A program made the position numbers and the translations under genes. A stretch of 27,603 bases of DNA from Betaproteobacteria bacterium (GTDB taxonomy: Bacteria; Pseudomonadota; Gammaproteobacteria; Burkholderiales; SG8-41): assembly GCA_025363575.1 (NCBI GenBank), contig JANYDM010000101.1, positions 1-27,603 on the forward strand, given 5' to 3'. Below the pieces are notes generated by a model. It searched no databases. It saw only the letters and a list, made by a program, of their open reading frames with translations, and was not told the origin of the DNA. This document shows positions 2,972-20,411 of the stretch, piece by piece. The first letter of the stretch is position 1. Each line of letters opens with the position of its first letter.

Positions 2972-2981
2972 TGATATCCTC

Positions 2982-6072: not shown

Positions 6073-6303
6073 ATGTTTGAATTAAAAACGTTGGCTTCAC
6101 GCTCTTCCCTGACGCTGCTCGCGGTCGCGACCGCAGGCTATGCCGGCTACAGCATGTACCGGTCACGCAAACCCGGCTTGCCGTCCCCGGGCGCCAGAAA
6201 GCAAGAGCCCGCACAGCTCGACAAGATGCTGGACACCGCGCTGGAAGACAGCATGGCTGCCAGCGATCCGCCTTCGACCGTGATGCCCGAAGTGCGCAAT
6301 TAG
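6073..6303 (+). CDS. Small membrane-anchored protein with a DSMxASDPPS tail
   Basis: A 76-residue protein starting at the ATG at 6073, with AAGGA 7 nt upstream. The same frame is open further upstream to 5935, but that part is Arg/Pro-rich and lacks a ribosome-binding site. Residues 11-28 form one hydrophobic segment (LTLLAVATAGYAGYSMY) followed by Arg/Lys, so it is probably a single-pass inner-membrane anchor. The C-terminus has LDTALEDSMAASDPPS. A similar EDSxxASDPPS motif recurs at the end of many small proteobacterial proteins of unknown function. It is a monocistronic gene; no partner is visible. Confidence 0.7.
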   Translation: MFELKTLASRSSLTLLAVATAGYAGYSMYRSRKPGLPSPGARKQEPAQLDKMLDTALEDSMAASDPPSTVMPEVRN

Positions 6304-6366
6304 GTCGCGCGGATACCTGCCAGGCTGCCTGGCGCTACACACCGCGGCGCGTGGCGAACGGCAACT

Positions 6367-7290
6367 TCACTCATAGACCACGAGGCAACGCAGCTCGATG
6401 CTTTCACGCAGCGGCGCAGCGGCCGGCGCGTCGGGAATGTCGAATGCCGCGTGGGGCGTAAATCTCGCGACGCCGTCCACCTGCGAGTCGAACTGCTTGA
6501 AAACAAGCGCTTCATTGCGGTCCATTGCTGAATAGTAGAACCAGCGATGGCGCGCTGAGTGTGTAAGCAGATAGATTTCACCGGTGCGGCCCGGGTAGCG
6601 CACCTCACCAGCCACGAGATCAGCCGCCGACACCGTGCGCGAGTCGATCACGCCGAGCGGCGTATCCACGATCGGCCCGGCTATGGAACGCCAGATATTG
6701 ACTATGCTGTAGTGTCCGGCGGAGGCGGCAGCATCCGCATCCTTAGTTACAAGGCGCAGTCGCTTCGCGCCCGACTCTTCCGTATAGTCGTTGTGAACGC
6801 GCCCGTTGGATGATGGCTGTTGGTGCTTGCCGCGCCGGCCGAAGCTGAGTGCGGGTCGCCCGGCCTCACGCTTGCGCACGAGGTGATCGAACACATAAGC
6901 GCGAGTGCCGCCCGTGACGCGGCACGCCAGGTCGGCCATCTCCTCATAGTAAACCGTGGCGATAGCCTCTTCGTCGGTGAAGTCGCGCACGTCCGAAGGC
7001 GCGTCCCGCAATTCAAAGCCTTCCTTGTGTACTGACGGCGCCGCGAGAAGGCTGCGTGCATCGGTGACGCGCATCGCGCGGGCATCGTACTCGCAGTTTT
7101 GCCAGGGCGCGCCGGCGGGCGGCTCAAAGGCATATTCATACGGGCGCTCTTTGCCGGGCTTCAGATAGCCGAGGTTCGCTACCACTGAGGGGAGCGGTGC
7201 GGCAGTATCGCGATAGACCCGCTGCGGCTGCGCCTGTGCCGTGTTTCGCTTATCGATTGCATCGCGTTGTTGCAGAGCATGTAAATGCAT
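6367..7290 (-). CDS. CmcJ/NvfI-type Fe(II)/2-oxoglutarate-dependent oxygenase-like protein
   Basis: A 307-residue protein of the CmcJ/NvfI/AsaB-like family, which includes hydroxylases and desaturases of fungal and bacterial metabolites. The visible facial triad is H166-x-D168 in the VHNDYT motif plus H280 in FTPHAAF. An R295-x-S297 motif 15 residues later matches the 2-oxoglutarate-binding RxS motif. Other family features are NIWRSIAGP near 198 and RHRWFYYSAM near 248. TGGAGG lies 7 nt before the ATG at 7290. It follows Bug4 by 119 nt on the same strand and may be co-transcribed, which would link the Bug4 ligand to the oxygenase substrate. The substrate is unknown. The cofactor is inferred from motifs only. 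Confidence 0.8.
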   Translation of the reverse strand: MHLHALQQRDAIDKRNTAQAQPQRVYRDTAAPLPSVVANLGYLKPGKERPYEYAFEPPAGAPWQNCEYDARAMRVTDARSLLAAPSVHKEGFELRDAPSDVRDFTDEEAIATVYYEEMADLACRVTGGTRAYVFDHLVRKREAGRPALSFGRRGKHQQPSSNGRVHNDYTEESGAKRLRLVTKDADAAASAGHYSIVNIWRSIAGPIVDTPLGVIDSRTVSAADLVAGEVRYPGRTGEIYLLTHSARHRWFYYSAMDRNEALVFKQFDSQVDGVARFTPHAAFDIPDAPAAAPLRESIELRCLVVYE

Positions 7291-7409
7291 GGCGCCTCCA
7301 AAGAAACTTAGGTGGACGCATTAAATGCTCAAGCAGGCAGCGATTCAAGCGAGTTTTTTGCATCGGTCAGATGCATCGTATGCATGCGACGGTACGGGAC
7401 ACTATGTGT

Positions 7410-8405
7410 CTATTGCTGCGGAATACCCGCTTCCTTGATCACGCGCCCCCAGCGCGCGGTTTCTGCACGCATGAACTGCGCGAATTCATCACGGCTGGTC
7501 GGCGCAATCTCGATCACCATGTCTTTGAACCGCTGCTGGAGTTCGGGCTGGCGCAACACCGCTGTGAGGTCGGCATGCACCTTGTCGAGAATCCCCGCAG
7601 GCGTGCCGGTCGGTGCACACAACCCGTACCACGAGCTCACTTCGAAACCGGGCAGCGCGGTCTCGTGCACGGTCGGCACTGACGGCAACTGCGAAATGCG
7701 CGTGAGGCTCATCACCGCCAGCGCGCGCACCCGCCCGCTCTGAATGACCGGCAGCACCGCGGGCGCCGACTGTATGCTCACGGGAATCTGGCCGCCGATC
7801 AAATCGGACAGCGCCTGCGGCGCGCCCTTGTAGGGGACCTGCACGAGGTCGATCTTCGCCGTCAGCTTCAAGTACTCCATCGCGAGCTGCTGCGACGAGC
7901 CGGACGCCGACGTGCCATAGCTCAGCTTGCCCGGATTGGCTTTCGCATACGCGATGAACTCCGCAATCGAGCGCGACGGCATCGACGGATGCACGACAAG
8001 CACGTTCGGCGTCTTGCCGATGAGCGAGATGGCTGCAAAGTCGCGCTGGTGGTTGTACGGCATCGTCGCGTACAAAGACTCGGCGATTGCGCTCGACGCG
8101 ATATTGCATTGAAACAACGTATAGCCATCGGCGGGCGCCTTGGCGGCGATTGCGGCGCCCAGCGTGCCGCCCGCGCCCGAGCGGTTGTCGACCACCACTT
8201 GCTGATTCCATATCCGGCCGAGCCGTTCGCTAATCTGGCGCGCGACAATATCGGGCGAGCCCGCGGCGGGAAAAGGCACGAGGTAGCGCACGGGTTTGGC
8301 GGGATAACTCTGCGCTGGCGATGTCAGCGGGCACAGCCATGCCGCCAGCGCCAACGCCAACGTCGACGTCAACGCACGATGTCGTTCGATCGCAAGCTCA
8401 GTCAC
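7410..8405 (-). CDS. Bug/TctC-family periplasmic substrate-binding protein (Bug4)
   Basis: A 331-residue Bug protein. The start is a GTG at 8405 preceded at ideal distance by GGGAGGAG, which fixes it despite the unusual codon. Signal peptide: acidic/basic N-terminus, then LALALAAWLCPLTSPAQ. Motifs are YPAKPVRYLVPFPAAGSPDI, VDNRSGAGGTLG, DGYTLFQ, QVPYKGAPQA (Gln in place of the common His) and LPGFEVSSWYG. It ends PQQ rather than the frequent KGE. Its upstream neighbour, a radical SAM gene, is divergent; the oxygenase gene lies downstream. The ligand is unknown. Confidence 0.93.
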   Translation of the reverse strand: MTELAIERHRALTSTLALALAAWLCPLTSPAQSYPAKPVRYLVPFPAAGSPDIVARQISERLGRIWNQQVVVDNRSGAGGTLGAAIAAKAPADGYTLFQCNIASSAIAESLYATMPYNHQRDFAAISLIGKTPNVLVVHPSMPSRSIAEFIAYAKANPGKLSYGTSASGSSQQLAMEYLKLTAKIDLVQVPYKGAPQALSDLIGGQIPVSIQSAPAVLPVIQSGRVRALAVMSLTRISQLPSVPTVHETALPGFEVSSWYGLCAPTGTPAGILDKVHADLTAVLRQPELQQRFKDMVIEIAPTSRDEFAQFMRAETARWGRVIKEAGIPQQ

Positions 8406-8579
8406 CGGCTCTCCTCCCGCTTATCCAAATCTCCGCATGCATTGTCCACCTTCAAAACAGCTTCTGGAAGCGGCTGCCTGCGCATTGCCACAATTCGCCA
8501 CACGCGCGCCACGATTGCGCCCGGCCCCGCCATTTCGGCTGCCTAGCCTTGAATCTCCTTTCTACAGTTCGAGGTCACC

Positions 8580-10154
8580 ATGCGCATCCTTCTGCTCAAT
8601 CCACCGCATATCGCAATCGGCAGCCGCATTCCGCTGGAACAGCTTCCCCCGCTCGGCTTGCTTTCAATCGGCGGCCCGCTCATCGATGCGGGCCATGACG
8701 TCGAGTTGCTCGACGCCGAAGTAGGTCCGCTAACGCACGACGAGGTGATCAAGCGCGTCGTCACGCACCGCCCGCAGGTGCTGATGGTCGGACATTCAGG
8801 CTCGACGTCGGGCCATCCGATAGCCGCAGAGCTGACGCGGCGCGTGCGCGAGAAGCTGCAAAACGTCATCATCGTGTACGGCGGCGTGTTTCCGACTTAT
8901 CACTTTCGCGAGGTGATGCAGGCCGAGCCGCAAGTCGACGTGATCGTGCGCGGCGAAGGCGAAGCGACCGCGCTGAACCTGATGAACGCGCTGGAAAACG
9001 ACGTGGGCCTGAAGACGGTGGACGGCATTACCTTCCGCACCGGCGACGGGCTGGTCGTGGAAAACAATCCCGCTGAAATGATCCGCGACCTGGACGCGTT
9101 CCGCGTCGGCTGGGAGCTCATCGAGCCATCGCGCTACGGCTATTACGGCGGCAAGCGCGCGGTGGTGATGCAGTTCTCGCGCGGCTGCCCGCATCATTGC
9201 AACTATTGCGGCCAGCGCGGGTTCTGGGCGCGCTGGCGCCACCGAGATCCGCAAAAATTCGCGGCGGAGATCGCATGGCTGCACCGCGAGCATGGCGTGC
9301 AGCTCATCAATCTCGCCGACGAAAATCCCACGGTCAACAAGGCGGCGTGGCGTGCCTTCTGCGAAGCGATGATCGCCCAGAACGTCCCCGTCAGCATTAT
9401 TGGCTCGACGCGCACCGGCGACATCGTGCGCGATGCCGACATTTTGCATCTCTACCGGCGCGCCGGCGTCGAGCGCTTTCTGCTCGGCATCGAAAACACC
9501 GACGAGGCGACGCTCGACAAGATCAAGAAAGGCTGCGACACCACCACCGACCGCGAAGCGATACGGCTGATGCGCCTGCACGGCATCATCTCGCTCGCGA
9601 CGTGGGTCGCCGACTTCGAGGAGGTCACCGACCGCGACCTGCTGCGCTGCCTGCGGCAGCTCATTTCGTACGACGTCGACCAGATCACGACCATGTTTGT
9701 GACGCCGCACCGCTGGACGGGTTTCTACCGGCAGGCGCAGGACCGCCGCGTCATCCAGCTCGATCAGCGGCTGTGGGATTACAAGCACCAGGTGCTGGAA
9801 TCGCGCCGCATGCCGCCCTGGCGCCTGTACTTATGGGTCAAGCTGATCGAAGTGCTCGTGCAAACGCGGCCGCGCGCGGTGTTGCGGACTTTTTTGAACC
9901 CGGACCGCGCGATGAGCCACGGCATGCGCTGGTACACGCGCATGGGCCGGCGCGTGTGGTTTCACGAAATGAAAAACTTCCTGTTCAACGACCGCCGCGT
10001 GAAAGACGGCCCCACCCTGCGCGAGTTCTGGGGCGCGCCGCAGGACCGGCAGGAAGTGCCGGTGCGCGTGGTGAAATTCAAGAACCGCCGCAGCGAGTAC
10101 GCAAAACACTGGCTGTCGCGCGTCAAGCACGATCTTTCATCTTCGGCGGGATGA
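8580..10154 (+). CDS. B12-binding radical SAM protein, BchE-like class
   Basis: A 524-residue protein. Residues 1-140 form a cobalamin-binding Rossmann domain (MRILLLNPPH, GLLSIGGPLIDAGHDVELLDAE, VGHSGST, YGGVFPTYHF, VRGEGEAT) without the DxHxxG cobalt-ligand motif. The radical SAM core follows with the Cx3Cx2C cluster at C203, C207 and C210 (RGCPHHCNYC). Such enzymes use a 4Fe-4S cluster, SAM and often methylcobalamin for methylation, cyclisation or oxidation of unactivated carbons. The arrangement resembles the anaerobic Mg-protoporphyrin ester cyclase BchE, but no bacteriochlorophyll genes are present, so the substrate is open. GAGGT precedes the ATG. It is transcribed alone, divergent from Bug4. 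Confidence 0.88.
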   Translation: MRILLLNPPHIAIGSRIPLEQLPPLGLLSIGGPLIDAGHDVELLDAEVGPLTHDEVIKRVVTHRPQVLMVGHSGSTSGHPIAAELTRRVREKLQNVIIVYGGVFPTYHFREVMQAEPQVDVIVRGEGEATALNLMNALENDVGLKTVDGITFRTGDGLVVENNPAEMIRDLDAFRVGWELIEPSRYGYYGGKRAVVMQFSRGCPHHCNYCGQRGFWARWRHRDPQKFAAEIAWLHREHGVQLINLADENPTVNKAAWRAFCEAMIAQNVPVSIIGSTRTGDIVRDADILHLYRRAGVERFLLGIENTDEATLDKIKKGCDTTTDREAIRLMRLHGIISLATWVADFEEVTDRDLLRCLRQLISYDVDQITTMFVTPHRWTGFYRQAQDRRVIQLDQRLWDYKHQVLESRRMPPWRLYLWVKLIEVLVQTRPRAVLRTFLNPDRAMSHGMRWYTRMGRRVWFHEMKNFLFNDRRVKDGPTLREFWGAPQDRQEVPVRVVKFKNRRSEYAKHWLSRVKHDLSSSAG

Positions 10155-10195
10155 ACTCCCGGTTTTAGCCGGCTGCGCGAACCGCGGCATTAAAA

Positions 10196-10645
10196 TCAGT
10201 TGCCGGCGCGCGACGAATTCAACGCGATGGCCGCGCGAATCAGCGCTTTCAGCGCCTTCTCATTCATCTTTCCGCCCTCGTGGAAGTCGATAGCGCGCCT
10301 GACGTTGCCTTCGAGACTGGAGTTGAAGAGCCTGGCCGGGTCCGCCAGCGCGGCTCCCTTGGCGAATGTCATTTTTACCACGCTCTTATACGTTTCGCCG
10401 GTGCAGATCATGCCGTCGTGATACCACACCGGAACGCCGCGCCATTTCCACTCTTCGACGACCGCGGGATCGGCCTGCTTGATCACTGCGCGCAGCCGCG
10501 CGAGCGTTTCGCCGCGCCAGTCGCCGAGCTCTTTGATCCTCGCGTCTATCAGACGCGACGGCGACTTTACTTTGCCGGGCGCACTCTTGTTCGCACCGCT
10601 TTTTACTTTCGTTTTCTTTGCTTTCTTGCGGCTTGCTTCAGGCAT
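10196..10645 (-). CDS. DUF1801-domain protein with Lys-rich N-terminus
   Basis: A 149-residue protein. The first 30 residues are a Lys/Ser tail (KKAKKTKVKSGANKSAPGKVK) that could bind nucleic acid. Residues 32-145 match the DUF1801/YdhG-like domain: RLRAVIKQADPAVVEEWKW, GVPVWYHDGMICTGETYK, VKMTFAKGAAL, LFNSSLEGNVRRAIDF and KALIRAAIALN. The domain is widespread; its biochemical role is not established. GGAG lies 8 nt before the ATG. It faces the radical SAM gene tail to tail with 41 nt between the stops and no convincing terminator. Confidence 0.87.
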   Translation of the reverse strand: MPEASRKKAKKTKVKSGANKSAPGKVKSPSRLIDARIKELGDWRGETLARLRAVIKQADPAVVEEWKWRGVPVWYHDGMICTGETYKSVVKMTFAKGAALADPARLFNSSLEGNVRRAIDFHEGGKMNEKALKALIRAAIALNSSRAGN

Positions 10646-10754
10646 TGCAGGGCTCCGGCAAGTTACGATAGCTCATCACGGGCTGATCTGACACAGCACC
10701 AATGCTGTCGATAATACGCGAATCCAAACGGCCGCTGATCGCCGCTCCTGCTCC

Positions 10755-11729
10755 TCACTCGCCCTTGATCCCCGCGCGCGTGATCACGTCCGTCCATTTA
10801 ACCGTCTCCGCTTTGACGTGCGCGGCAAAACGCTCGGGCGTGCCGCCGACGGGCTCGATGCCCAGTGCCAGCCAGCGCTCGCGTATCGCCGGCGATTCAA
10901 TCGCTTTGTTGAGCTCCGCGTTAAGCCTGGCGACGATGGCTGCGGGCGTTGCCGCCGGCGCAATGTAACCGCCCCACGCAGTGATCTCGTAGCCCGGCAC
11001 GCCGGCCTCCGATACGGTCGGAATATCGGGCGCCAGCGGAATGCGCCGCGGGCCCGTCACGCCGAGCGCGCGCAGCCGTCCGGACGTGACGTGCGGCAAC
11101 ACGGAGGTCACGTTGTCCGACATAAGCTGCAGGCGGCCGCCGATGATTTCGGTGATGACCTGCTGCATGCCTTTATACGGCACGTGCACCATGCGCGTGT
11201 TCGTCATGAGCTTGAGCAGCTCCACGCTCAGATGCATCGTGCTGCCGCTGCCGGTCGAGCCGAACAGCAACTGGTCCGGGTTGCGCTTTGCATACGCAAT
11301 CAGTTCCGCCATCGAATTGACGGGCAGCGTCGGCGTGATCGCGATGATGTTGGGCGAAATGTTCGTCAGGACCACCATGCGGAAATCCTTTTTCACGTCG
11401 TACGGCACGCGCGCAAGCAAGCTCGGATTGGTGGCGAGCGGAAACCCGCCGTAGCCTATCGTATAGCCGTCCGGCAGAGCCCTCGCCACCGCCTCGAACC
11501 CGATCGAGCTGCTGGCGCCCGGCCGGTTGTCCACCACGACTTGCTGGCCGATTTGTTTGCCGAGCGCGACGGCGACGAGCCGCGAATTCGTGTCCGGCTG
11601 CCCGCCGGCGGCCGAGGGCACGATCATGCGTACAGGCCGTTCGGGCCAGGCAGCGAGCGCCGGGTACCCTGGCACACAGCCCATCGCGGCCATCAGCAAT
11701 AGCGTTTTTGCAGACTTCATAAACTCCAT
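10755..11729 (-). CDS. Bug/TctC-family periplasmic substrate-binding protein (Bug5)
   Basis: A 324-residue Bug protein with a signal peptide (KSAKTLLLMAAMGCVPGYPALA) and the motifs WPERPVRMIVPSAAGGQPDT, VDNRPGASSSIG, DGYTIGYGG, HVPYKGMQQV, DIPTVSEAGVPG and a KGE end. The ligand loop PSAAGGQPD is the most divergent of the plus-Gly-Gly type in the window. Two ATGs three codons apart (11729 and 11720) compete. AAAAGG abuts the first, and GGATGGAG is close to the second, so the start is uncertain by 9 nt. It is divergent from the SDR-hydrolase-Bug6 operon and not in an operon with an enzyme; a DUF1801 gene lies 109 nt downstream. Confidence 0.92.
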   Translation of the reverse strand: MEFMKSAKTLLLMAAMGCVPGYPALAAWPERPVRMIVPSAAGGQPDTNSRLVAVALGKQIGQQVVVDNRPGASSSIGFEAVARALPDGYTIGYGGFPLATNPSLLARVPYDVKKDFRMVVLTNISPNIIAITPTLPVNSMAELIAYAKRNPDQLLFGSTGSGSTMHLSVELLKLMTNTRMVHVPYKGMQQVITEIIGGRLQLMSDNVTSVLPHVTSGRLRALGVTGPRRIPLAPDIPTVSEAGVPGYEITAWGGYIAPAATPAAIVARLNAELNKAIESPAIRERWLALGIEPVGGTPERFAAHVKAETVKWTDVITRAGIKGE

Positions 11730-11795
11730 CCTTTTGTCGAGCGTGCTGCTCTGACCCGCGAGCGCGTGGACAGGGATGATACCGCCACCCGCTGT

Positions 11796-11822
11796 TTGAT
11801 GAACGCTGGGGCACCGTATAAT
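11796..11822 (+). promoter_or_regulatory. Sigma-70-type promoter of the SDR-hydrolase-Bug6 operon
   Basis: A perfect TATAAT at 11817-11822 is preceded by TTGATG at 11796-11801 with a 15-nt spacer, slightly short. Transcription would start near 11829, leaving a leader of about 37 nt that contains the strong AAGGAGGAG in front of the ATG at 11866. It is the clearest -10 box on this side of the Bug5/SDR divergent region. Confidence 0.5.
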
Positions 11823-11865
11823 CGCGACAGTTCAACGCGAGGCAGAATCGCGCAAGGAGGAGTTC

Positions 11866-12639
11866 ATGGCCGTACCAGGTCTACCCGCCGCGGGACGCGA
11901 GCTCGCCGGCCAGGTCGCGCTCGTCACCGGCGGCGCGAAGAATATCGGGCGCGCGATCTCGCTCGCACTTGCGGCCGCAGGCGCGGCGGTTGCGATCAAC
12001 ACGCTGCGCTCAAGCGAAGAGGCCGAAGCCGTAGTGAGAGAGATCCGCGCGGCGGGCGGCAACGGCGAGGTTTTCCTCGCGGACGTGGCAGATGCCAGCG
12101 CGGTGCGCGCGATGGGCGAAGGCGTGCTGAAACGTTTCGGCAGAATCGACATCCTGGTCCTCAATGCCTCGCAGCGCCGCGAGATGCTCTTCAAGGACAT
12201 GACGTTCGAGGACTGGCGCCACACGTTGTCGATCACGCTCGACGGCTCATTTCACTGCATCAAGGCCTGCCTGCCTTCCATGCTTGCGCAGCGCAGCGGC
12301 AACATCGTCACGCTGGCCGGCGACGCCGTCCTGCTTGGCGGCAATCGCAAAGCGCACAACACAACGGCGAAGAACGGGCTCGTCGGACTCACGCGCGCCC
12401 TGGCCAGGGAACTCGCCGGCGACGGCATCCGCGTCAATTGCGTATCGCCCGGCAGCATCAATACCGAACGTCCCGCTCACCGCAGCGCGCGCGCCGACCC
12501 CCAAGGCAAGATCCCGCTGGGACGCTACGGCGAGCCGGAAGAAATCGCCGCCTGCGTGCGCTTCCTGTGCGGCCCCGGCGGCGGCTTCATCACCGGCCAG
12601 ATCCTGCACGTTAGCGGCGGCGATTTTATTTTCGCGTAG
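11866..12639 (+). CDS. SDR-fold protein lacking the catalytic Ser and Tyr
   Basis: A 257-residue short-chain dehydrogenase/reductase-fold protein. The nucleotide-binding motif TGGAKNIG (21-28) is intact. The usual NNAG is replaced by LNAS (99-102). The classical Ser...Tyr-x3-Lys is degenerate: the Tyr position holds Asn165 (HNTTAK) with Lys169 kept, and the Ser position thirteen residues earlier holds Gly152. The C-terminus (FITGQILHVSGGD) is standard. It probably binds NAD(P) but is unlikely to use normal SDR chemistry; it may be a partner, sensor or non-redox enzyme. AAGGAGGAG gives a firm start. It is first gene of an operon with the hydrolase 19 nt downstream and Bug6 after that. Confidence 0.88.
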   Translation: MAVPGLPAAGRELAGQVALVTGGAKNIGRAISLALAAAGAAVAINTLRSSEEAEAVVREIRAAGGNGEVFLADVADASAVRAMGEGVLKRFGRIDILVLNASQRREMLFKDMTFEDWRHTLSITLDGSFHCIKACLPSMLAQRSGNIVTLAGDAVLLGGNRKAHNTTAKNGLVGLTRALARELAGDGIRVNCVSPGSINTERPAHRSARADPQGKIPLGRYGEPEEIAACVRFLCGPGGGFITGQILHVSGGDFIFA

Positions 12640-12658
12640 CACAACCAGAGGAAAGACG

Positions 12659-13819
12659 ATGTTCTACAACAGCAACTGGATCCACAGCTTCCCGCAGAAT
12701 TACCAGTGGTCGAACGCAATCCTCGTTACCAAGGGCATGGCGCCCTATGGCGCAGTGGCGATGGGCGAGATCGACATCGTCACGCAGAAGCTGCACGCGC
12801 GCATCAACGAGCCGCACGCGTGGTGGGAAGAATGGCAGGCGATGGCCGAATTCGTCGAACGCGGCGGTGACACAGCGGCAGCTGCAGGCAACCACGCGAC
12901 GGCCGGCAATTACTATCTACGCGCATCCAACTACTACTATTGCGGCGAGCGCATGATAGAGCCGGGCGAGAAAAAGATCGGCATGTACAAGAAGAGCCTG
13001 CATTGCGCGCACGAAGGCCTCAAGCGCCGCTATCCGAACGTCGAGTTCGTCGACGTGCCTTACGAGGGCAAATCGCTGCCGGCCTATTTCATGAAGTCGC
13101 CGTACGCCAAGGGCCCGGCACCGACCATGGTCCTGTTCGACGGCCTCGATAACTGCAAAGAGATGAGTGTGCTGTTCGCGGGCCTCGAGCTCGCCTACCG
13201 CGGGTTTCACACGCTGGCGATCGACGGCCCCGGTCAGGGAGAAGCTCTGCGCTTACGCAACATTCCGGCGCGTTACGACTACGAAGTCGCGGGCACTGCC
13301 GCCTACAATTATGTCGCCGGCCGCAACGATGTCGATGCAAAACGCGTGGCCATCATGGCTTACAGCGCCGGCGGTTATTACGCGCCGCGCGCCGCTGCTT
13401 TCGAGCCGCGCTATGCAGCCTGTGTCGCGTGGGGCCCGCATTATGACTATCACGCGGTATGGCAAAAGCGCTGGGCCGCAATGCAGAAGGACCATAACAG
13501 CGTGGCCACGTCGCACTTCCAGCTACCGTGGGTGCTCGGCGTCGACGGCATGGACGCGGCGATGGAGAAACTGAAAAAATTCACGCTCGCTGGCGTGGCC
13601 GACAAGATCAAATGCCCGATGCTGATCTGCTGGGGCGAAGAAGACAAATTGACGCCCCGCGAAATCGCACATCAGCTTCTCGACAACGTGGGGTCGACAG
13701 ACAAGACGCTGAAAGTGTTTACCGCGAAAGAAGGCGGCGCCGAACATTGCCAGGTCGACAACCGCCAGGTCGGCACGGATTACATCTGCGATTGGCTGTC
13801 GGCGCGGCTGCACCCGTAG
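12659..13819 (+). CDS. Alpha/beta hydrolase (FrsA / 2,6-dihydropseudooxynicotine hydrolase-like)
   Basis: A 386-residue serine hydrolase. Residues 1-125 are a helical N-terminal region containing YYLRASNYYYCGERM; the core follows. The triad is visible: S236 in AYSAGG, D329 in CWGEEDKLT, H363 in GGAEHCQVD. Oxyanion-region residues are near FDGLDNCKE (160-168), and DGPGQGEALRLR is at 189-200. The layout matches the family of C-C bond hydrolase DHPON hydrolase and related esterases, so the substrate may be a diketone or an ester. The start is the ATG at 12659 with AGAGGAAAG upstream; the frame extends further 5' but only as a shadow of the SDR gene. It lies 19 nt after the SDR stop and 5 nt before Bug6. 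Confidence 0.88.
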   Translation: MFYNSNWIHSFPQNYQWSNAILVTKGMAPYGAVAMGEIDIVTQKLHARINEPHAWWEEWQAMAEFVERGGDTAAAAGNHATAGNYYLRASNYYYCGERMIEPGEKKIGMYKKSLHCAHEGLKRRYPNVEFVDVPYEGKSLPAYFMKSPYAKGPAPTMVLFDGLDNCKEMSVLFAGLELAYRGFHTLAIDGPGQGEALRLRNIPARYDYEVAGTAAYNYVAGRNDVDAKRVAIMAYSAGGYYAPRAAAFEPRYAACVAWGPHYDYHAVWQKRWAAMQKDHNSVATSHFQLPWVLGVDGMDAAMEKLKKFTLAGVADKIKCPMLICWGEEDKLTPREIAHQLLDNVGSTDKTLKVFTAKEGGAEHCQVDNRQVGTDYICDWLSARLHP

Positions 13820-13824
13820 CGATC

Positions 13825-14781
13825 ATGCGCACACTCTTGCTCGCAACACTCATCGCCGCGGGCGCGGCGGCGGCGCAGGATTATCCGCAGCGCCCGATTC
13901 GCATGGTGATTCCGTTTCCCGCGGGCGGCTCTATCGACCTGATCGGCCGCTCGATCGCGCAGAACTGGAGCGCCACCCTCGGCCAGCAGATCGTCATCGA
14001 CAACCGTGGCGGCGCCGGCGGCACGCTGGGCACGGATCTCGTCGCTAAAGCGCAGCCCGACGGCTACACGATTCTCTACGGCAATTCCGGGCCGCTCTCG
14101 ATCGGTCCGCTGCTCTACAAGAAGCTCGGCTACGACCTCTTCCGCGACCTGGCGCCGGTATCGCAGTCTGTAAGCTCGCCGTTCGTCGTGTTCGCGAATC
14201 AAGCGCTGCCGCCGAACAATGCGGCGGAGCTCATCGCCTACGCGAAGGAGCGGCCGAATCAAATTAATTACGCGTCGAGCGGCGTCGGCAGCGGCCTGCA
14301 TCTCGTCGGCGAGCTCTTTCAGAGCGTGACCGGCACGAAGCTCGTGCACGTGCCATTCAAAGGTATCAGCCAGGCGCTGGCGGAACTCTTCACCGGCCGC
14401 GTGCAGCTGGCGATGAGCACCACCGCGGGGCTCGCGCCGCACGTCAGGGCCGGCCGCATGAAGGGCATTGTCAGCACCGGCCGCGAGCGGTCGCCGCAAC
14501 TGCTGGAAGTGCCGACATGCATCGAGGCCGCCTTGCCGGGCTTCTGCGTCAGTTCGTGGCATGCAATCATGGCCCCGGCCGGCACACCGCGCGCAGTCGT
14601 CAACAAGCTGCAGCAGGCGCTGAAAACCACCTTGGCGAATGCAGAGCTGCGCGATCAACTGCTTGCGCGGGAAGATGCTTCCGCCGTGGCGGGCACACCC
14701 GACGAGCTGGCGAAATTCCTGCGCGCCGAATCCGCCCGCTGGGCCGCGATCATCAAGGCGGTGGGCGTCAAGGGCGAATAG
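13825..14781 (+). CDS. Bug/TctC-family periplasmic substrate-binding protein (Bug6)
   Basis: A 318-residue Bug protein starting at the ATG at 13825, where a compact signal peptide begins (MRTLLLATLIAAGAAAAQ). Motifs are YPQRPIRMVIPFPAGGSIDL, IDNRGGAGGTLG, DGYTILYG, HVPFKGISQA, LPGFCVSSWHA and a KGE end. There is no independent Shine-Dalgarno sequence; it starts 5 nt after the hydrolase stop, so translation is probably coupled. It shares an operon with an SDR-fold protein and an alpha/beta hydrolase, which suggests that the bound compound is the hydrolase substrate or product. Confidence 0.93.
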   Translation: MRTLLLATLIAAGAAAAQDYPQRPIRMVIPFPAGGSIDLIGRSIAQNWSATLGQQIVIDNRGGAGGTLGTDLVAKAQPDGYTILYGNSGPLSIGPLLYKKLGYDLFRDLAPVSQSVSSPFVVFANQALPPNNAAELIAYAKERPNQINYASSGVGSGLHLVGELFQSVTGTKLVHVPFKGISQALAELFTGRVQLAMSTTAGLAPHVRAGRMKGIVSTGRERSPQLLEVPTCIEAALPGFCVSSWHAIMAPAGTPRAVVNKLQQALKTTLANAELRDQLLAREDASAVAGTPDELAKFLRAESARWAAIIKAVGVKGE

Positions 14782-14804
14782 CTCTAATAGCGATGCATTT
14801 TTCT

Positions 14805-14813
14805 TGCTAGAAT
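14805..14813 (+). promoter_or_regulatory. Extended -10 promoter in front of the Cys-rich gene
   Basis: TGC followed by TAGAAT matches the extended -10 pattern TGnTATAAT at five of six core positions. No good -35 is seen, as is common for extended -10 promoters. The expected transcription start falls at or within a few bases of the GTG at 14820, where no Shine-Dalgarno sequence exists. The gene may be expressed from a leaderless message. Confidence 0.45.
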
Positions 14814-14819
14814 GCCGGC

Positions 14820-15182
14820 GTGACTCCACGACTCCATCGAATTATTGCCTGCGTGCTGCTGCTGTTGCTGCCGTTGCAGGCGTTCGCCGCGGTGACCGCA
14901 TGTGCGCACGCGAAAGCGCCGCAGGCCGCTGCCATGGAAGGCATGGAGAACTGCCAGATGGCGCAGGATAACGCCGGCACGGATGGCGCTTCCAAGTCCG
15001 GCGGCGAGAGCCCGCAATCGTGCTGCGCCACGATGGCTTGTGCGATATGCAGCGCTCTGGCATCCGCTCCACGGCTGCCGGCATCCGTTGCCGCGCATGA
15101 GCAATCCGGCCCGTTGATCTTTCCGCAGTACACCTCCTTCATCCCCGACGGGTTGCAACGCCCGCCCACTATCCGCGCGTAG
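14820..15182 (+). CDS. Small exported Cys-rich protein (DUF2946-like)
   Basis: A 120-residue protein. Residues 5-23 form a signal peptide or anchor (RLHRIIACVLLLLLPLQAFA). The mature part is rich in potential metal ligands: C28-x-H30, M41, C45-x-M47, C68-C69, M72 and C74-x-x-C77. This resembles DUF2946-type proteins found next to copper and heavy-metal genes. The GTG start at 14820 is forced: an in-frame TAG lies four codons upstream and the hydrophobic leader begins just after it. It opens the envelope metal module and is separated from the outer-membrane-like gene by 127 nt of hairpins and repeats. A role in periplasmic metal binding is an inference. Confidence 0.72.
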   Translation: MTPRLHRIIACVLLLLLPLQAFAAVTACAHAKAPQAAAMEGMENCQMAQDNAGTDGASKSGGESPQSCCATMACAICSALASAPRLPASVAAHEQSGPLIFPQYTSFIPDGLQRPPTIRA

Positions 15183-15220
15183 ACGCGTTGCGCAGCCGGT
15201 CGGCTGCGCCAGGCGCGTCG
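15183..15220 (+). repeat. Large stem-loop directly after a stop codon
   Basis: The inner arm at 15191-15210 is a perfect 20-nt palindrome (GCGCAGCC / GGCTGCGC around GGTC). It is enclosed by GACGCG at 15183-15188 and CGCGTC at 15215-15220. It begins at the base after the TAG of the Cys-rich gene. Only a weak T-rich stretch (GCTTTACTT) follows, so it may terminate partially or protect the upstream message from decay. Confidence 0.8.
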
Positions 15221-15226
15221 CTTTAC

Positions 15227-15290
15227 TTGCCCCGGCCGCCGGCCGGGATGCATTTGTCTTGCCCCGGCCGCCGGCCGGGATGCATTTGTT
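15227..15290. repeat. Two exact tandem copies of a 32-bp unit, each with a hairpin
   Basis: Positions 15227-15258 and 15259-15290 are identical. Each unit starts CTTGCCCCGG, contains a 7-bp GC-only stem CCCGGCC / GGCCGGG with a GCC loop, and ends in the palindrome ATGCAT followed by TTGT. Perfect identity indicates a recent duplication or an active site. The repeats lie 20 nt upstream of the ATG of the outer-membrane-like gene, so they sit in its leader or promoter. Confidence 0.92.
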
Positions 15291-15309
15291 ACACGCACGG
15301 GGGTCACCG

Positions 15310-15966
15310 ATGAGAACTTCAGTTCCGCGACGGCTGGCGTCCGCCATTGCCATTGCTACGCTCGCCATGTCGTGCGCGCGCGCCGGGCCCATGGGTTTCA
15401 AGGATTCCTGGATGGCGATGGGCGATTTCAGCCCGAACTGGCGCGAAGCGTGGGTCAACTACGCATTCACGGCGCGCGACGCCGTTGGCGGCGGCGGACT
15501 CTATATGCGCTCCGACGACGGCCGGAAGCGGCGCGAGCTCGAGGAAGTCACTTACACCCGCCTGCTGTCACGCTGGAACGCTAAAGAAGCGCAAGCCAAT
15601 CTCTGGTTCGTCGGCGGCATCGGCGCGATACAGGGCAACGACTTCAGCGGCTCCAAAACCGTGGTCACGCCGGGCATGCAGTTCGACTATGAAACAACGC
15701 GGGTTTATTTCGCCGCCGCGGCCCGGCTGTATCGGGCGTCCGGATTGAATCACGACTACGGCTCGGTCAGGGCGGGGTTCTCGTTTTATGAAGTCGACTA
15801 TGAACAGACCCAGCCCTGGCTGATCGTCGAAGCGCGGCGCATGCGCGACCTGTCCGACAAAATGGAGATCACGCCGATGCTGCGCCTGATCAACAAAGGC
15901 TATTTCGTGGAGGCCGGCGTGAACAACTCGCGCCAGCTTCGTTTCAACTTCATGTACATATTCTAA
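15310..15966 (+). CDS. Putative outer-membrane beta-barrel protein of the metal module
   Basis: A 218-residue protein with a signal peptide (RRLASAIAIATLAMSCARA, about residues 7-25) and a mature part rich in alternating aromatic/polar strands: WVNYAFTARD, GGGLYMRS, ANLWFVGGIG, TRVYFAAAARLY, VRAGFSFYEV, YFVEAGV. It ends in RFNFMYIF, and a C-terminal Phe is typical of outer-membrane barrels recognised by BamA. I do not recognise a named family. GGGGGT precedes the ATG at 15310. It is 14 nt upstream of the HMA gene, so the two are co-transcribed. It may be the outer-membrane element of metal uptake or release; this is inferred from context. Confidence 0.7.
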   Translation: MRTSVPRRLASAIAIATLAMSCARAGPMGFKDSWMAMGDFSPNWREAWVNYAFTARDAVGGGGLYMRSDDGRKRRELEEVTYTRLLSRWNAKEAQANLWFVGGIGAIQGNDFSGSKTVVTPGMQFDYETTRVYFAAAARLYRASGLNHDYGSVRAGFSFYEVDYEQTQPWLIVEARRMRDLSDKMEITPMLRLINKGYFVEAGVNNSRQLRFNFMYIF

Positions 15967-15980
15967 AAAAAGGACACCTT

Positions 15981-16316
15981 GTGAAAAAACTGATTGCACT
16001 CTCCGCACTATTCTTCGCGCTTGCGAGCGGCGCGGCGCAGGCCGCCGTGCAGACCATCAAGGCCGAAGTCAACGGCATGGTGTGCGCTTTCTGCGCGCAG
16101 GGGATCGAGAAGAAAATGCGCTCGCTCTCGCAGACGAAAGACGTCTATGTCGACCTGAAGAACAAGGTCGTCGCGGTGGAGCTGAAAGAAGGCCAGTCGC
16201 TCTCGCATGAAGCAGTTGCCGCGCTGATCAAGGACGCCGGCTACGAAGTTGCGAAAATCGAGACGGTGGCCGAGACAGCGAAGCAAGTCAAAGCCGCCAC
16301 GCGCAACAGGAAATAG
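15981..16316 (+). CDS. MerP-like periplasmic heavy-metal-binding (HMA) protein
   Basis: A 111-residue protein with a clear Sec signal peptide (KKLIALSALFFALASGAAQA) and a single HMA domain at about 23-95. The metal site is C35-x-x-C38 in NGMVCAFCAQGIEKKM, followed by the beta-alpha-beta pattern (VYVDLKNKVVAVEL, IKDAGYEV). HMA domains bind soft metals such as Hg(II), Cu(I) or Zn(II) with the two Cys. MerP is exported and about 91 residues; this one has an extra Lys/Ala-rich tail. The start is a GTG at 15981 with AAGGA 7 nt upstream. The MerT-like gene follows after 2 nt, as merP and merT also adjoin each other. Which metal is bound cannot be seen. Confidence 0.9.
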   Translation: MKKLIALSALFFALASGAAQAAVQTIKAEVNGMVCAFCAQGIEKKMRSLSQTKDVYVDLKNKVVAVELKEGQSLSHEAVAALIKDAGYEVAKIETVAETAKQVKAATRNRK

Positions 16317-16318
16317 CG

Positions 16319-16699
16319 ATGGATGGACTGGCCCAAAGCAGGCTTGCCTCGATGCTGTCGCTGTTCACCAGCGGCAGCACCCTGGTGTGCTGCGCAATCC
16401 CGGCGCTGCTGGTGGCCATAGGCGCCGGGGCAGCGCTGTCCTCCGCGGTGTCCGCCGTGCCGCAACTGGTGTGGATCTCGGAGCACAAGGAAGAAATTTT
16501 TCTGACTGCCACGGCCATGCTCGTGCTGTCAGGCGTCATGCAATGGCAGGCAGCCCATCTGCCCTGCCCCGTCGACCCGGCGCTCGCGGCCGCCTGTACG
16601 CGAACGCGGAAAATCTCCAGCCGGGTTTATCTCATTTCGGTTGCGCTGTATCTGGTCGGCGGCTTTTTTGCTTTCGCCGCGCCGTTGCTTATCGACTAA
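16319..16699 (+). CDS. MerT-like small inner-membrane metal transporter
   Basis: A 126-residue protein with three predicted transmembrane segments: about 15-50 (containing C24-C25 in LVCCAIPALL), 58-77 and 103-124. Two further Cys (C83, C93) lie in the loop between segments two and three. MerT has the same plan: a Cys pair in the first helix that takes Hg(II) from MerP, and a Cys pair in the cytoplasmic loop. Overall sequence is diverged from classical MerT and neither MerA nor MerR is nearby, so mercury need not be the substrate. AGGA precedes the ATG, 2 nt after the HMA stop. It probably moves a thiophilic metal ion across the inner membrane. Confidence 0.72.
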   Translation: MDGLAQSRLASMLSLFTSGSTLVCCAIPALLVAIGAGAALSSAVSAVPQLVWISEHKEEIFLTATAMLVLSGVMQWQAAHLPCPVDPALAAACTRTRKISSRVYLISVALYLVGGFFAFAAPLLID

Positions 16700-16703
16700 C
16701 CGG

Positions 16704-17543
16704 TTATCCGGCCGCGGATTTCAGCGGCCAGCCGAGCCATTCGCACAGAGTGCGGCCCATTATCCATTCCAGGTCATCGGCCGTCAGCCACTTCATCTCT
16801 TCGGTAAACACCGTCACGCACTCGCGGTAAGTCCCTCTTAACCGCGACAGATCGCTGCCCCACATCATGCGCCGGGGGCCGAACGCGTCGTACACGCGCC
16901 GCACGTGCGCATGCAGATTGCCCTAAGGATAGGGCGCGTCGGTGTAGCATGGCAGCGCGCTCACCTTGACCGCGATGTTAGGCCGCCGCGCCGCGACAAG
17001 CAGCTTGTCGAGGTCGCGAAACGCGACGTCGTCCTTCACGCCGCTCGCAAGCGCCATGTGATCGAAGATGAGCTTGAGGCGCGGGTGACGTGCCGCGATG
17101 TCATCGATCACGTGCACATTCTCGTGCGACACGCCGACGTACACCGGCACCCCGGCTTCTTCGGCCACGCCCCACACCCAGTTGGCATCGCCGCTGTCCA
17201 GCGCTTGCGGCGCGCGTTTAAAGTTGAAGCGCAGGCCGAGCATGCCGGGCTGAGTGCGCCATTGAGCAAGCCGCGCGGGCGCTTCTGCGTCCTTGACGCC
17301 GATCTTGCCCATGACGGCAAAGCGGTCGGGATGCGCTTGCGCGGCCGCGAGCCCGAGATCATTGCGCGTGCCGTCGAGGCTGGGCGGTACGATGACAACG
17401 CGATCGACGCCCGCGGCGTTCATCTCGCGCAGCAGGTCTTCGCTGCCCAGCGGCGCGGGGCGATGCGGACGAGTGCCGGCTGCCCAGGGCCGCTCTGGCG
17501 AGTTCGCAGCCCAGATATGCACTTGCGAGTCGGCGATCAGCAT
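16704..17543 (-). pseudogene. Amidohydrolase (amidohydrolase-2 / TIM-barrel) interrupted by an in-frame TAG
   Basis: The reading frame encodes about 279 residues, the normal length for this family of metal-dependent lactonases and decarboxylases. It has the metal motif DSQVHIW near the start, RFNFKRAP, VYVGVSHENVH, LIFDHMA, and near the end RRMMWGSDLSRL with the conserved Asp231. Codon 207 is TAG (16923-16925). Homology continues in the same frame directly after it (GNLHAHVRRVYDAFGPRR), so a single base change such as TAC to TAG explains it. The truncated 206-residue product would lack the Asp231 site. The gene begins 7 nt after Bug7 and is in the same transcript; the MerT-like gene converges on its end with 4 nt between them. 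Confidence 0.85.
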
Positions 17544-17550
17544 TGCAGCT

Positions 17551-18519
17551 TTAGTTATCGTTCAAACCAATTTCGCGGTTCACGCGCGACCACTTGTCCA
17601 CTTCGGTCTTGATGAATGCGCCGAACGCGTCGGGCGCGAGGGTCCAGACCTCGAATCCCTGCGCCTGCACAGCGGCCGTGACGTACGGCATGTTCAATAT
17701 GCGCACGATCTCCTGGTTCAGGTGCCCGACGATGGACTGCGGCGTTTTGGCGGGTGCGACGAAACCGTACCAGGAGTGCGATTCATAGCCGGGCACGCCG
17801 GCTTCCGCGATGGTGGGCAGATCCGGAAACAATCGCGAACGATGGCCGGTCGTCACTGCAAGTGCCCGCAGCCGGCCGTCCCGGATGAAAGCGGTCGAGC
17901 TCGGCGGAGACGCGAAACCGATCTGCGTCTGGCCGGCGACGAGATCGATCATCGCCGGGCCGCCGCCTTTGTACGGCACATGCAGGAGCTGGGTCTTCGT
18001 CAGGCTGCGGAAGAGCGCGCCCGCGAGGTGCCCTGCTCCGCCGGTCCCCGATGTGCCGTATGCAAGCGCGTTGGGCTGTTTCTTCGCGATCGCGATGAGC
18101 TCCCTCACGGAGCGAGCCGGCACGGAAGGATGCAGGACCAGCACGCTGCTGCTCAATATGGCCGGAGTAATCGGCGCGAGATCGCGCACCGGATCATACT
18201 CGAGCTTCTTGTAGAAAATGACGTTCGTGCCGAGATTGCCCACGGCGCCGAGCATGATGGTGTAGCCATCCGGCGGCGCTTTCGCGGTGAACTCGGCCGC
18301 GAGCGAGCCGTTGGCACCCGTCCGGTTTTCGACGATGACCGTTTGGCCGAACGCTTCCGCCAGTTTCGGCCCGACGATCCGGCACAGCGTATCGATGCCG
18401 CCCCCCGGCGCCTGCGAAGCGATCATGCGGATGGCTTTGGATGGATACGCCGCCTGCTGGGCGAAGGCGGGCGGCGCCAACAGCGTTGCCATGGCCGTCG
18501 CGAAAAAACGATGCAACAT
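17551..18519 (-). CDS. Bug/TctC-family periplasmic substrate-binding protein (Bug7)
   Basis: A 322-residue Bug protein. The start is the ATG at 18519, with AGGAAAG upstream and a signal peptide right behind it (LHRFFATAMATLLAPPAFAQ). The frame stays open 5' to 18972, but that part is a shadow of the aldolase gene. Motifs are YPSKAIRMIASQAPGGGIDT, VENRTGANGSLA, DGYTIMLG, HVPYKGGGPAMID, DLPTIAEAGVPG. The ligand loop ASQAPGGGIDT departs from PFPPGG. A TATTAT -10-like box lies at 18549-18554 on this strand with no clear -35. It is followed after 7 nt by the broken amidohydrolase, so the ligand may have been a lactone or cyclic acid. Confidence 0.93.
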   Translation of the reverse strand: MLHRFFATAMATLLAPPAFAQQAAYPSKAIRMIASQAPGGGIDTLCRIVGPKLAEAFGQTVIVENRTGANGSLAAEFTAKAPPDGYTIMLGAVGNLGTNVIFYKKLEYDPVRDLAPITPAILSSSVLVLHPSVPARSVRELIAIAKKQPNALAYGTSGTGGAGHLAGALFRSLTKTQLLHVPYKGGGPAMIDLVAGQTQIGFASPPSSTAFIRDGRLRALAVTTGHRSRLFPDLPTIAEAGVPGYESHSWYGFVAPAKTPQSIVGHLNQEIVRILNMPYVTAAVQAQGFEVWTLAPDAFGAFIKTEVDKWSRVNREIGLNDN

Positions 18520-18622
18520 TCCAATCTTTCCTGATTTCTGTTTCTGCAATAATACAGCATGGCATTTTGACGATTCGACGGAAAGTTCGATCAGAAGGCA
18601 ACACGAAAAAAGGAACCCGGCC

Positions 18623-19426
18623 ATGCGTACCAACAAGACAAAAGCAAAGATCGCCGCCGGCGAATGCGTCATCGGCGTGAGCGTAGCCTTCCCCTCGCCC
18701 GACCTGGTCGAGCTTTGCGCGGCCGTCGGCTTCGACTTCGTCACGTTCGACACCGAGCACGAGCCGATGAACAGCGAGCAGATCGTGCACTGCATACGCG
18801 CGGCGGAGTCGTTCGACATCACGCCTATCGTGCGCCTGCCGCGCAACCCCGACCTGGTGCTGCGCTTTCTGAACGCGGGCGCCCAGGGCATACACGTGCC
18901 GCGCTGCACGACCGCGGCGGACATGCAGGAAGTGGTGCAGTGGACGCGTTTCCATCCGCTCGGCGAGCGCACGTTCTACAACCGCGGCCGCTCCGGAAAT
19001 TACACCGTCGGCCTGCCCGACACGGCTGCCTGGGCGCAGGCGGCCAACCGCGAGCTGCTCGTTATCTGCATGATCGAGGAAATAAAGGCGCTGACCAATC
19101 TCGACGAGATGCTCACTGTCCCCGGCGTCGACGTCATTCATATCGGCCACATGGACCTGTGGCAATCGATGGGCATGCCGGCCGACATGAAAGGCGTATT
19201 CGAGACGATAGCCGGGATCGCCAAACGCGGCGTGGCCGCGGGCAAATACATGAGCCACACCATACGGCTCACCGACGACGCGGTCGACCGCATGGGTGAC
19301 TACATGCGCATAGGCTCAAAGCTGTTTACGATTTCGCCGATGGATTTTCTGCGCCAGGGCGGCGTCAAGCTGACCCATGCGATGCGCGACATGGAGAAGA
19401 AGGTCGTCGCGGAACGTACTAAGTAG
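18623..19426 (+). CDS. HpcH/HpaI-family class II aldolase
   Basis: A 267-residue member of the HpcH/HpaI aldolase family, which cleaves or forms 4-hydroxy-2-oxo acids to pyruvate plus an aldehyde using a divalent metal. The expected residues are visible: H46 in DTEHEP, R71 in VRLP, metal ligands E152 (ICMIEE) and D178 (HIGHMDLWQSMG). All are close to HpaI positions 45, 70, 149 and 175. The start is the ATG at 18623 with AAGGA 8 nt upstream; the frame is open earlier only as a shadow of Bug7. Bug8 follows 16 nt after its stop, so the pair is an operon, divergent from Bug7. The aldehyde specificity is unknown. Confidence 0.9.
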   Translation: MRTNKTKAKIAAGECVIGVSVAFPSPDLVELCAAVGFDFVTFDTEHEPMNSEQIVHCIRAAESFDITPIVRLPRNPDLVLRFLNAGAQGIHVPRCTTAADMQEVVQWTRFHPLGERTFYNRGRSGNYTVGLPDTAAWAQAANRELLVICMIEEIKALTNLDEMLTVPGVDVIHIGHMDLWQSMGMPADMKGVFETIAGIAKRGVAAGKYMSHTIRLTDDAVDRMGDYMRIGSKLFTISPMDFLRQGGVKLTHAMRDMEKKVVAERTK

Positions 19427-19442
19427 TCCTGCGGTGCAACGC

Positions 19443-20411
19443 ATGACTCTATTGAGAGCATTCGGCTTTGCGAGCATGGCCTTCCTGTCCGGCGTCACCG
19501 CTGCTGCTGTCGATGACTTTTCGGCCAAACCTGTGCGGCTGATCGTGAATACCGCCCCCGGCGGCAGCACCGACATCGTCGCACGCATCATAGGGGCCCA
19601 ACTAAGCGAGCGGCTGAAGACACAGGTTGTCGTCGACAACCGCGGCGGCGCGGGCGGGGCGATCGGCATGGAAGCGGAAGCCAGGGCGGCGCCGGATGGC
19701 CGCACGCTTCTCCTGGCCAACTCGTCGCTGACGACGCTGCCCGCGTTGAGAAGGCTGCCTTACGATCCGGTCAAGTCGTTCGCCCCGATCGCAAAACTGG
19801 CGAGCGTCTATCTGGCGCTCGTCCTTCACCCGTCGATCGAGGCGAAATCCGTGCAGGAATTCATCGCACTGGCGAAACGCAAACCGGGCGCCATCGTCTT
19901 TTCCGGTTCCGGGCCAGGGGCGCATACGACGATGGCGACGGAGCTTTTCAAGAACATGGCCGCAATCGACGTATTGATCGTGGAATACAAGAGCGGCGGG
20001 CCGGCCATCATCGACCTGCTTGGCGGGCAGACGCACGCGATGCTCGCGACCATTCCTTCTGTTTTGCAGCACATCAAGGCCGGAAAACTCAGGGTGCTCG
20101 CAACGAGCGGCACGGAGCGCAGCAATTTTCTGCCGGATGCGCCGACGATAGCCAGCGCGGGCGTGCCCGGCTACTCGACGGTGCAATGGCATGGCATGCT
20201 GGCGCCTGCCGGCACGCCTCAGCGCATCACCGATTTTCTGCACGCCGGGCTGAAGGAAATACTTGCGTCGGAGGAAGGAAAACGGAAATTGGTAAGCGCC
20301 GGCGCCGAAATCGACTATTTGCCGCCCAAAGAGTTTGGGACCTTCATACGCAAGGATCTGGAACAGTGGTCGCACCTGGTGCAAAGAGCGGAGATTAAAT
20401 CGCGCGAGTAG
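19443..20411 (+). CDS. Bug/TctC-family periplasmic substrate-binding protein (Bug8), divergent
   Basis: A 322-residue Bug protein with a signal peptide (TLLRAFGFASMAFLSGVTAAA). It has KPVRLIVNTAPGGSTDIVAR, VDNRGGAGGAIG, DGRTLLL (Arg where Tyr is usual), LPYDPVKSF and VPGYSTVQWHG. The near-universal HVPYKG motif is changed to IVEYKSGGPAIID, the biggest departure among the eight, implying a different ligand environment. There is no recognisable Shine-Dalgarno sequence before the ATG at 19443; a GTG at 19434 is an alternative. It starts 16 nt after the aldolase stop, so its ligand may be a pyruvate-derived or hydroxy-oxo acid. It converges with the altronate-dehydratase-family gene. Confidence 0.92.
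   Translation: MTLLRAFGFASMAFLSGVTAAAVDDFSAKPVRLIVNTAPGGSTDIVARIIGAQLSERLKTQVVVDNRGGAGGAIGMEAEARAAPDGRTLLLANSSLTTLPALRRLPYDPVKSFAPIAKLASVYLALVLHPSIEAKSVQEFIALAKRKPGAIVFSGSGPGAHTTMATELFKNMAAIDVLIVEYKSGGPAIIDLLGGQTHAMLATIPSVLQHIKAGKLRVLATSGTERSNFLPDAPTIASAGVPGYSTVQWHGMLAPAGTPQRITDFLHAGLKEILASEEGKRKLVSAGAEIDYLPPKEFGTFIRKDLEQWSHLVQRAEIKSRE

Follow-up and report, generated by a model that had tools for sequence, protein, structure and literature searches.

MerP and MerT, which move metal inward, pair an exported HMA carrier bearing a CxxC motif with a small helical membrane protein that has a Cys pair in its first helix and two Cys further on. Copper control through nascent chains has been described for CruR and CutF, sensors of the DUF2946 family (PMC9426467, PMC9973294). 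In Bordetella pertussis, copper relieves the arrest of CruR, and Rho then stops the operon, which codes for a TonB-dependent transporter together with a protein of the inner membrane (PMC9426467); the arrest has been demonstrated in vitro (PMC12992588). CutF of Rhodobacter capsulatus carries a CxxxC motif and a PP end, and copper prolongs its arrest, opening a stem-loop over the Shine-Dalgarno sequence of cutO (PMC9973294). Copper acquisition pathways are still poorly characterized (PMC12914433), and little is known of how Gram-negative bacteria pass copper over their two membranes. Here we describe a locus that may bear on that passage: four genes at 14820-16699 on the plus strand of a 27,603-nucleotide stretch from a Betaproteobacteria bacterium (assembly GCA_025363575.1, contig JANYDM010000101.1; this whole stretch is the window hereafter). 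They encode a candidate DUF2946 leader, a predicted outer-membrane beta-barrel, an HMA protein and a MerT-like protein, and the last three form a conserved cassette that very probably handles copper.

A conserved barrel, HMA and MerT-like cassette

The four open reading frames (ORFs) lie in the order given by the original prediction, which was made from the DNA letters alone. They are gene 1, the leader candidate (14820-15182, GTG start, 120 residues); gene 2, the barrel gene (15310-15966, ATG start, 218 residues; the mechanical ORF opens at 15259); gene 3, the HMA gene (15981-16316, GTG start, 111 residues); and gene 4, the MerT-like gene (16319-16699, ATG start, 126 residues). The gaps between them are 127, 14 and 2 nucleotides.

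A barrel scan of a species-genome collection gave 46 loci. Downstream of the barrel, on the same strand and in the same order, an HMA gene was found in 46/46 of them and a MerT-like gene in 45/46 (tblastn); the sole locus without the latter, L033, is on a contig that ends about 50 bases past its HMA gene. Cultured bacteria from the environment are among the carriers, such as Caenimonas sedimenti (L014), whose genome has two copies, and Aquabacterium (L011). We also scanned 250 Burkholderiales genomes from the order of G001, the L011 genome, which had been picked for carrying the cassette. The barrel profile matched 20 genomes and the MerT-like profile 24, so that a MerT-like gene occurred in 20/20 barrel-bearing versus 4/230 barrel-less genomes, and barrel, HMA and MerT-like genes stood together in all 20 loci (L047 duplicates L011, and the scores of L048 and L049 equal those of L007 and L004). 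As to the four extra genomes, the MerT-like gene of G012 (L084) adjoins an HMA piece and no barrel was found, those of G054 (L091) and G126 (L092) stand with an HMA gene and a different barrel, and G223 (L093) gave a weak MerT-like match only. Relatives whose barrels share as little as about 21% identity retained the cassette order, and the nearest relatives of the window, judged by the barrel, were metagenome-assembled genomes of Betaproteobacteria. Pairwise distances were correlated across 63 sets (barrel-MerT-like, r = 0.61; barrel-HMA, r = 0.75; HMA-MerT-like, r = 0.78; 999 permutations, P value = 0.001), a result to be expected of genes that are inherited as a set. These results confirm that genes 2 to 4 make up a unit conserved beyond chance. 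The co-occurrence originally predicted for all four families holds for these three and not for gene 1, which is no fixed member of the set: a leader-like gene was found by profiles in only 37/46 loci. Two loci showed irregularities of their own: in L012 (4265-4912) the barrel gene is split into two ORFs, with uninterrupted reading frames for the leader, HMA and MerT-like proteins around it, and L095 has an ORF resembling a membrane protein (1072-1497) inserted between its HMA and MerT-like genes.

Gene 2 is predicted to encode a 12-stranded outer-membrane beta-barrel, as had been proposed. It has a signal peptide and ends in YIF, hence in a C-terminal aromatic residue, and its AlphaFold2 model is a confident barrel (mean predicted local distance difference test [pLDDT], 89.8; predicted template modeling score, 0.78) with 13 strand segments, which we read as 12 strands. 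No Pfam family, PcoB/CopB included, matched gene 2 at an E value of ≤1, and the barrel profile had no meaningful sequence relatives in the PDB. The fold matches included KdgM and autotransporter barrels, with PcoB ranking 14th among many others; kinship with PcoB was set aside, as the similarity is at the level of the fold and is shared with many barrels. The protein database holds at least 2505 barrel relatives and at least 7282 MerT-like relatives at an E value of ≤0.01 (about 8000 candidates scored in each case), and the cassette is thus not rare. The best 120 relatives of either protein carry no Pfam domain, and their names, where given, are mostly "hypothetical protein."

Gene 3 matches the HMA family (PF00403, 34.4 bits; cut-off, 24.8) and encodes an exported, MerP/CopZ-like protein with the motif C35-A-F-C38. 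This CxxC was kept in 67/68 HMA rows, and the structures closest to the HMA profile are those of copper ATPases and CopZ. In the carriers encoded at L096:1876-2298 and L097:1091-1501, the HMA domain is preceded by an N-terminal stretch rich in His. Gene 4 had no Pfam family above cut-off, and MerT (PF02411) was not among its matches at an E value of ≤1; NCBIfam models matched the four genes with scores under their cut-offs only. The Cys residues of the gene 4 product are C24, C25, C83 and C93, all four kept in 67/67 rows, and they are arranged as in MerT, the first two forming a pair in helix 1 and the others lying further on. When its profile was aligned with that of true MerT (hhalign, probability = 67, E value = 5.2 × 10−5, 107 columns), the four Cys fell on MerT Cys. 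The MerT-like relative of G054, which stands with another barrel, matches PF02411 at an E value of 4.6 × 10−4, below the cut-off. The gene 4 model is helical (pLDDT, 71.5), and no meaningful PDB sequence relatives of its profile were found. The CxxC and the positions of the four MerT-like Cys claimed earlier were thus correct. The pair resembles MerP/MerT in its exported CxxC carrier and in its small helical membrane protein with this Cys arrangement; the cassette differs from that system in having no PF02411 match and no MerA or MerR in the scanned window ORFs, and in having its own outer-membrane barrel and copper-linked neighbors.

The same pair was found with a second kind of barrel. The MerT-like profile matched 4/299 genomes of the phylum (G001 included) and 48/369 genomes of the class, and we examined 28 new class-level loci (L095 to L122; about 20 further matches were left out). 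Eight of the 28 carry the window's barrel family with the HMA and MerT-like genes, 17 carry the pair beside a barrel like the ones in L069, L091 and L092, one carries the pair only, and two carry the MerT-like gene only. Pfam scans of six such other barrels placed those of L091, L092, L107, L111 and L115 in PF13557 and gave no match for that of L109. No PDB relative of the L092 barrel was found, and kinship between the PF13557 barrels and that of the window was rejected (hhalign, probability = 2.9). A MerR-, thioredoxin- or DsbD-like gene lies in the short flanking stretch of 13/20 loci from L103 to L122. Judged by sequence, the HMA and MerT-like pair is found with at least two barrel families. 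The clusters with the other barrel (L103 to L122, L069 and L092), from other Gammaproteobacteria, share the HMA and MerT-like families adjoining an outer-membrane barrel but differ in their barrel family and in their frequent MerR, thioredoxin and DsbD-like genes, and they are apparently a second, undescribed cluster type. The use of two different barrel families would suit a pair that helps to assemble cuproenzymes at the inner membrane, the barrel only tuning outer-membrane permeability, and a Rhodobacter study reportedly found that copper exported by CopA feeds a multicopper oxidase (PMC8456105). However, no oxidase-assembly gene is among the 25 commonest of the 79 families upstream of the cassette, and we consider such a role unlikely.

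Gene 1, a probable leader, and its junction with the barrel gene

Gene 1 matches DUF2946 (PF11162, 24.0 bits; cut-off, 23.7) and has a CAIC motif followed, after 37 residues, by a C-terminal RPPTIRA. Because of this match, the CxxC, the C-terminal RPP and the predicted pairing with the barrel start site described below, we regard gene 1 as probably a cis-acting, copper-responsive leader of the CruR/CutF type. CxxC and a PP near the C terminus were present in 45/45 leader-like rows examined, a count that is partly circular, as the profiles that retrieved the rows had been made from 23 proteins of this kind. The spacing from CxxC to PP was 37 in 8/45 rows and 38 to 44 in the others, and PP began 4 to 6 residues from the C-terminal end in 44/45 rows and 10 residues from it in one. 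Of the 37 leader-like genes, 34 lie on the same strand within about 1 kb upstream, those of L015 and L035 are placed farther upstream, and that of L045 is on the opposite strand; gene 1 of the window type was found at 6 loci by tblastn. When leader-like genes of eight relatives were compared with Pfam, none passed the DUF2946 cut-off (those of L001 and L040 fell below it, and six had no DUF2946 match), and because of this we lowered our confidence in leader action slightly, to a level that is still fairly high, and our confidence in the reading as a whole to an even balance.

The original prediction had taken gene 1 as an envelope layer. We set aside such a structural role given the papers on DUF2946 and the CxxC and PP shared with CruR and CutF. 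Also improbable is that gene 1 yields a stable protein that binds metal in the periplasm and has no regulatory role; its signal-peptide-like N terminus, its 7 Cys and its weak, below-cut-off matches to the CzcI and CopL models (NCBIfam) would fit that idea, but the PP at a near-constant distance from CxxC in all 45 rows is like that of CruR and CutF. As a putative leader, gene 1 resembles CruR in being a DUF2946 protein with CxxC and a C-terminal PP ahead of genes for outer-membrane and inner-membrane proteins (PMC9426467). The operons differ in that CruR precedes a TonB-dependent transporter and PepSY_TM, whereas the window has a 12-stranded barrel, HMA and MerT-like proteins, and the leaders differ in motif (RAPP in CruR versus RPP) and spacing (45 versus 37; PMC9426467). 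The locus resembles CutF-cutO-cutG in having a putative exported leader with a Cys motif and a C-terminal PP, and RNA that is predicted to cover the next Shine-Dalgarno sequence (PMC9973294); the downstream genes of that operon, a multicopper oxidase and a chaperone, are unlike those of the window.

The leader end and the intergenic region (15159-15309, plus strand) include a strong predicted hairpin after the leader stop, and folding with ViennaRNA predicts base pairing between the codons of RPPTIRA and the G-run preceding the barrel start. In the window, the probability that the Shine-Dalgarno sequence is paired with the leader end was 0.82, versus 0.24 with a shuffled intergenic region. Among 20 junctions without CusF between leader and barrel, this pairing reached 0.5 or more in 14, the window included, and in 12 it lay over 0.2 above its control. 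We consider a CutF- or CruR-like switch likely. The junction gave no Rfam match. The leader-barrel gap also holds an exact, GC-rich 31-base direct repeat (15227-15257 and 15259-15289; 0 expected by chance), which contributes to the predicted RNA fold of the junction.

Copper-linked neighbors and the metal handled

Profiles placed a CusF gene in 24/46 loci, and in 15 of them it overlaps the barrel start by 4 nucleotides. Other profile matches over the 46 loci were OEP (9), multicopper oxidase (9), cupredoxin (8), DUF411 (7) and RND (3), and Pfam confirmed representatives of these copper-neighbor matches. A leader-like gene, CusF or both were present in 41/46 loci. CusF is rare elsewhere: 21 copies in 27.5 Mb of six cassette-bearing genomes, a few of them cassette neighbors themselves, give an expectation of about 0.01 per locus. 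Among same-strand upstream proteins (89 of 114 scanned with Pfam, with the 25 commonest of 79 families ranked), the commonest families were multicopper oxidase (8), CusF (7), OEP (7; not copper specific), copper-bind (7) and DUF411 (5), with TctC (3) next. Downstream, no copper family was among the 25 commonest listed (44 of 76 proteins scanned). The cassette is akin to the CusF, CusCBA and multicopper oxidase/DUF411 tolerance operons in that CusF and tolerance genes adjoin many of its relatives; it differs in that none of their genes is in the window and in having the barrel, HMA and MerT-like genes in addition. Further matches to metal ATPases were mixed. L016 has a heavy-metal ATPase with HMA domains (Pfam confirmed) together with MerR, and additional full-length "CopA" matches, by profile alone, were seen in L033, L040 and a second time in L016. 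For L021 and L023, a copper ATPase adjoining the cassette was considered and rejected, the matches being of the Cation_ATPase_N/C type, and some "CopA" rows were cross-matches to the cassette's own HMA gene. On this sequence context, the metal handled is very probably copper.

Mercury or another thiophilic metal, handled by a distant cousin of MerT/MerP, would be compatible with the invariant Cys of the MerT-like protein, which occupy MerT positions and all four align with MerT Cys, with the match of the HMA protein to MerP (TIGR02052, NCBIfam; 40.2 bits, below the cut-off of 92.55) and with the MerR-like genes often seen in the other-barrel form. Yet CopZ scores above MerP, the neighbors are copper linked and a probable leader is present, and MerA and MerR, like P-type ATPases, are absent, as originally predicted, from the window ORFs scanned with Pfam (sets of 6, 10 and 9 proteins; smaller ORFs were left out). 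We therefore think this alternative very unlikely. By the tests made, comparing sequences and profiles, the cassette proteins do not appear to be members of MerT, MerP or PcoB; gene 2 also differs from PcoB/CopB in its lack of a Pfam match and in its partner genes.

Possible copper relay and its direction

We propose, at about even confidence, that the operon encodes an envelope system that responds to copper and consists of a copper-sensing leader and a three-protein Cu(I) relay. The nascent leader would sense copper by its CxxC and slow the ribosome at the C-terminal RPP; the slowed ribosome would open the RNA that shields the barrel start site, and the barrel would then be translated. In the relay, the 12-stranded barrel would be a channel in the outer membrane, the HMA protein would carry Cu(I) in the periplasm by its CxxC, joined in many relatives by CusF, and the Cys of the MerT-like membrane protein would exchange Cu(I) with this carrier. 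A relay among these three proteins seems somewhat more probable than the proposal as a whole. In this view, a leader of the CruR/CutF type would precede a relay that resembles MerP/MerT and has an outer-membrane barrel of its own.

The direction of the inner-membrane step is harder to assign. By analogy with MerP/MerT, we tentatively favor an inward step, at less than even confidence; the tolerance-gene neighbors argue the opposite, and an outward or detoxifying step is a serious possibility. The earlier claim that this is not a detoxification operon is not supported, given the commonest upstream families, multicopper oxidase, CusF, OEP, copper-bind and DUF411. A trans-envelope route for a thiophilic metal had also been suggested; the thiophilic metal stands, copper fitting best, while the route itself is only possible. 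Outward carriage of Cu(I) is thought to be the role of CusF and PcoB-like proteins, and the cassette could likewise be a copper tolerance or efflux unit. The HMA protein and the barrel would then move Cu(I) from the periplasm outward, and at the inner membrane the MerT-like protein would recover or release it. We hold this to be a considerable, if minority, possibility. It would account for the upstream tolerance genes (cupredoxin among them), for CusBA-like genes in L028 and L029 and for the ATPase with MerR in L016, and it agrees with the activation of CutF-type leaders by copper (PMC9973294). However, the cassette has no energy source for export, the direction in MerP/MerT is inward, and in L021, L026, L027 and L034 an oxidase operon has its own leader-like gene while the cassette has a second one.

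A more specific form of the relay proposal is a trans-envelope copper conduit under nascent-chain control, built with at least two barrel families, in which Cu(I) would pass from a channel with a lumen-side Met site, M37, to the HMA carrier and on to the MerT-like protein. M37 was kept in 71/72 barrels, M35, M190 and M215 are in lumen phase, and the barrel Met were well kept among 64 closer barrels. We find this conduit doubtful. A conserved Met array was tried and fails, since M28, M35 and M190 are lost in all 8 distant relatives.

Several further observations weigh against a copper-responsive relay. Of the barrel Met other than M37, which 7 of those 8 distant relatives keep, M215 too is lost in 4. 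Neither a leader nor CusF was found in L003, L006, L007, L009 and L032, and CusF is absent from L001 to L010, the window's nearest relatives. Loci of a single group, Polaromonas-like and similar to one another, supply most of the copper neighbors, and the scanned window ORFs hold no copper gene besides gene 1. At the junction, pairing was 0.10 or less in 6/20 cases (L008, L010, L011, L013, L044 and L046), and shuffled controls were high at some junctions; the missing pairing in L011 and L013 may come from a misassigned barrel start.

We found no published description of the barrel, HMA and MerT-like unit in the open-access literature (supplements excluded), in line with the original prediction, and the main texts of PMC9426467, PMC9973294 and PMC12914433 mention neither MerT nor HMA. 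Every part has kin of a known kind; neither the combination nor the barrel family nor the copper link appears to have been described. If the proposal is true, leader-peptide copper control extends to another kind of operon.

A promoter scan of 14600-16950 found no sigma-70-like promoter on the plus strand. The remaining scanned window ORFs were mainly TctC receptors and catabolic enzymes, with no metal genes among them. Eight genes for TctC-type solute-binding receptors lie within the 27.6 kb (979-20408), an unusually dense set standing alongside catabolic genes. Just 3' of the cassette, on the minus strand, an amidohydrolase gene (16704-17543) is interrupted by an in-frame stop, and both pieces match Amidohydro_2, the second weakly.

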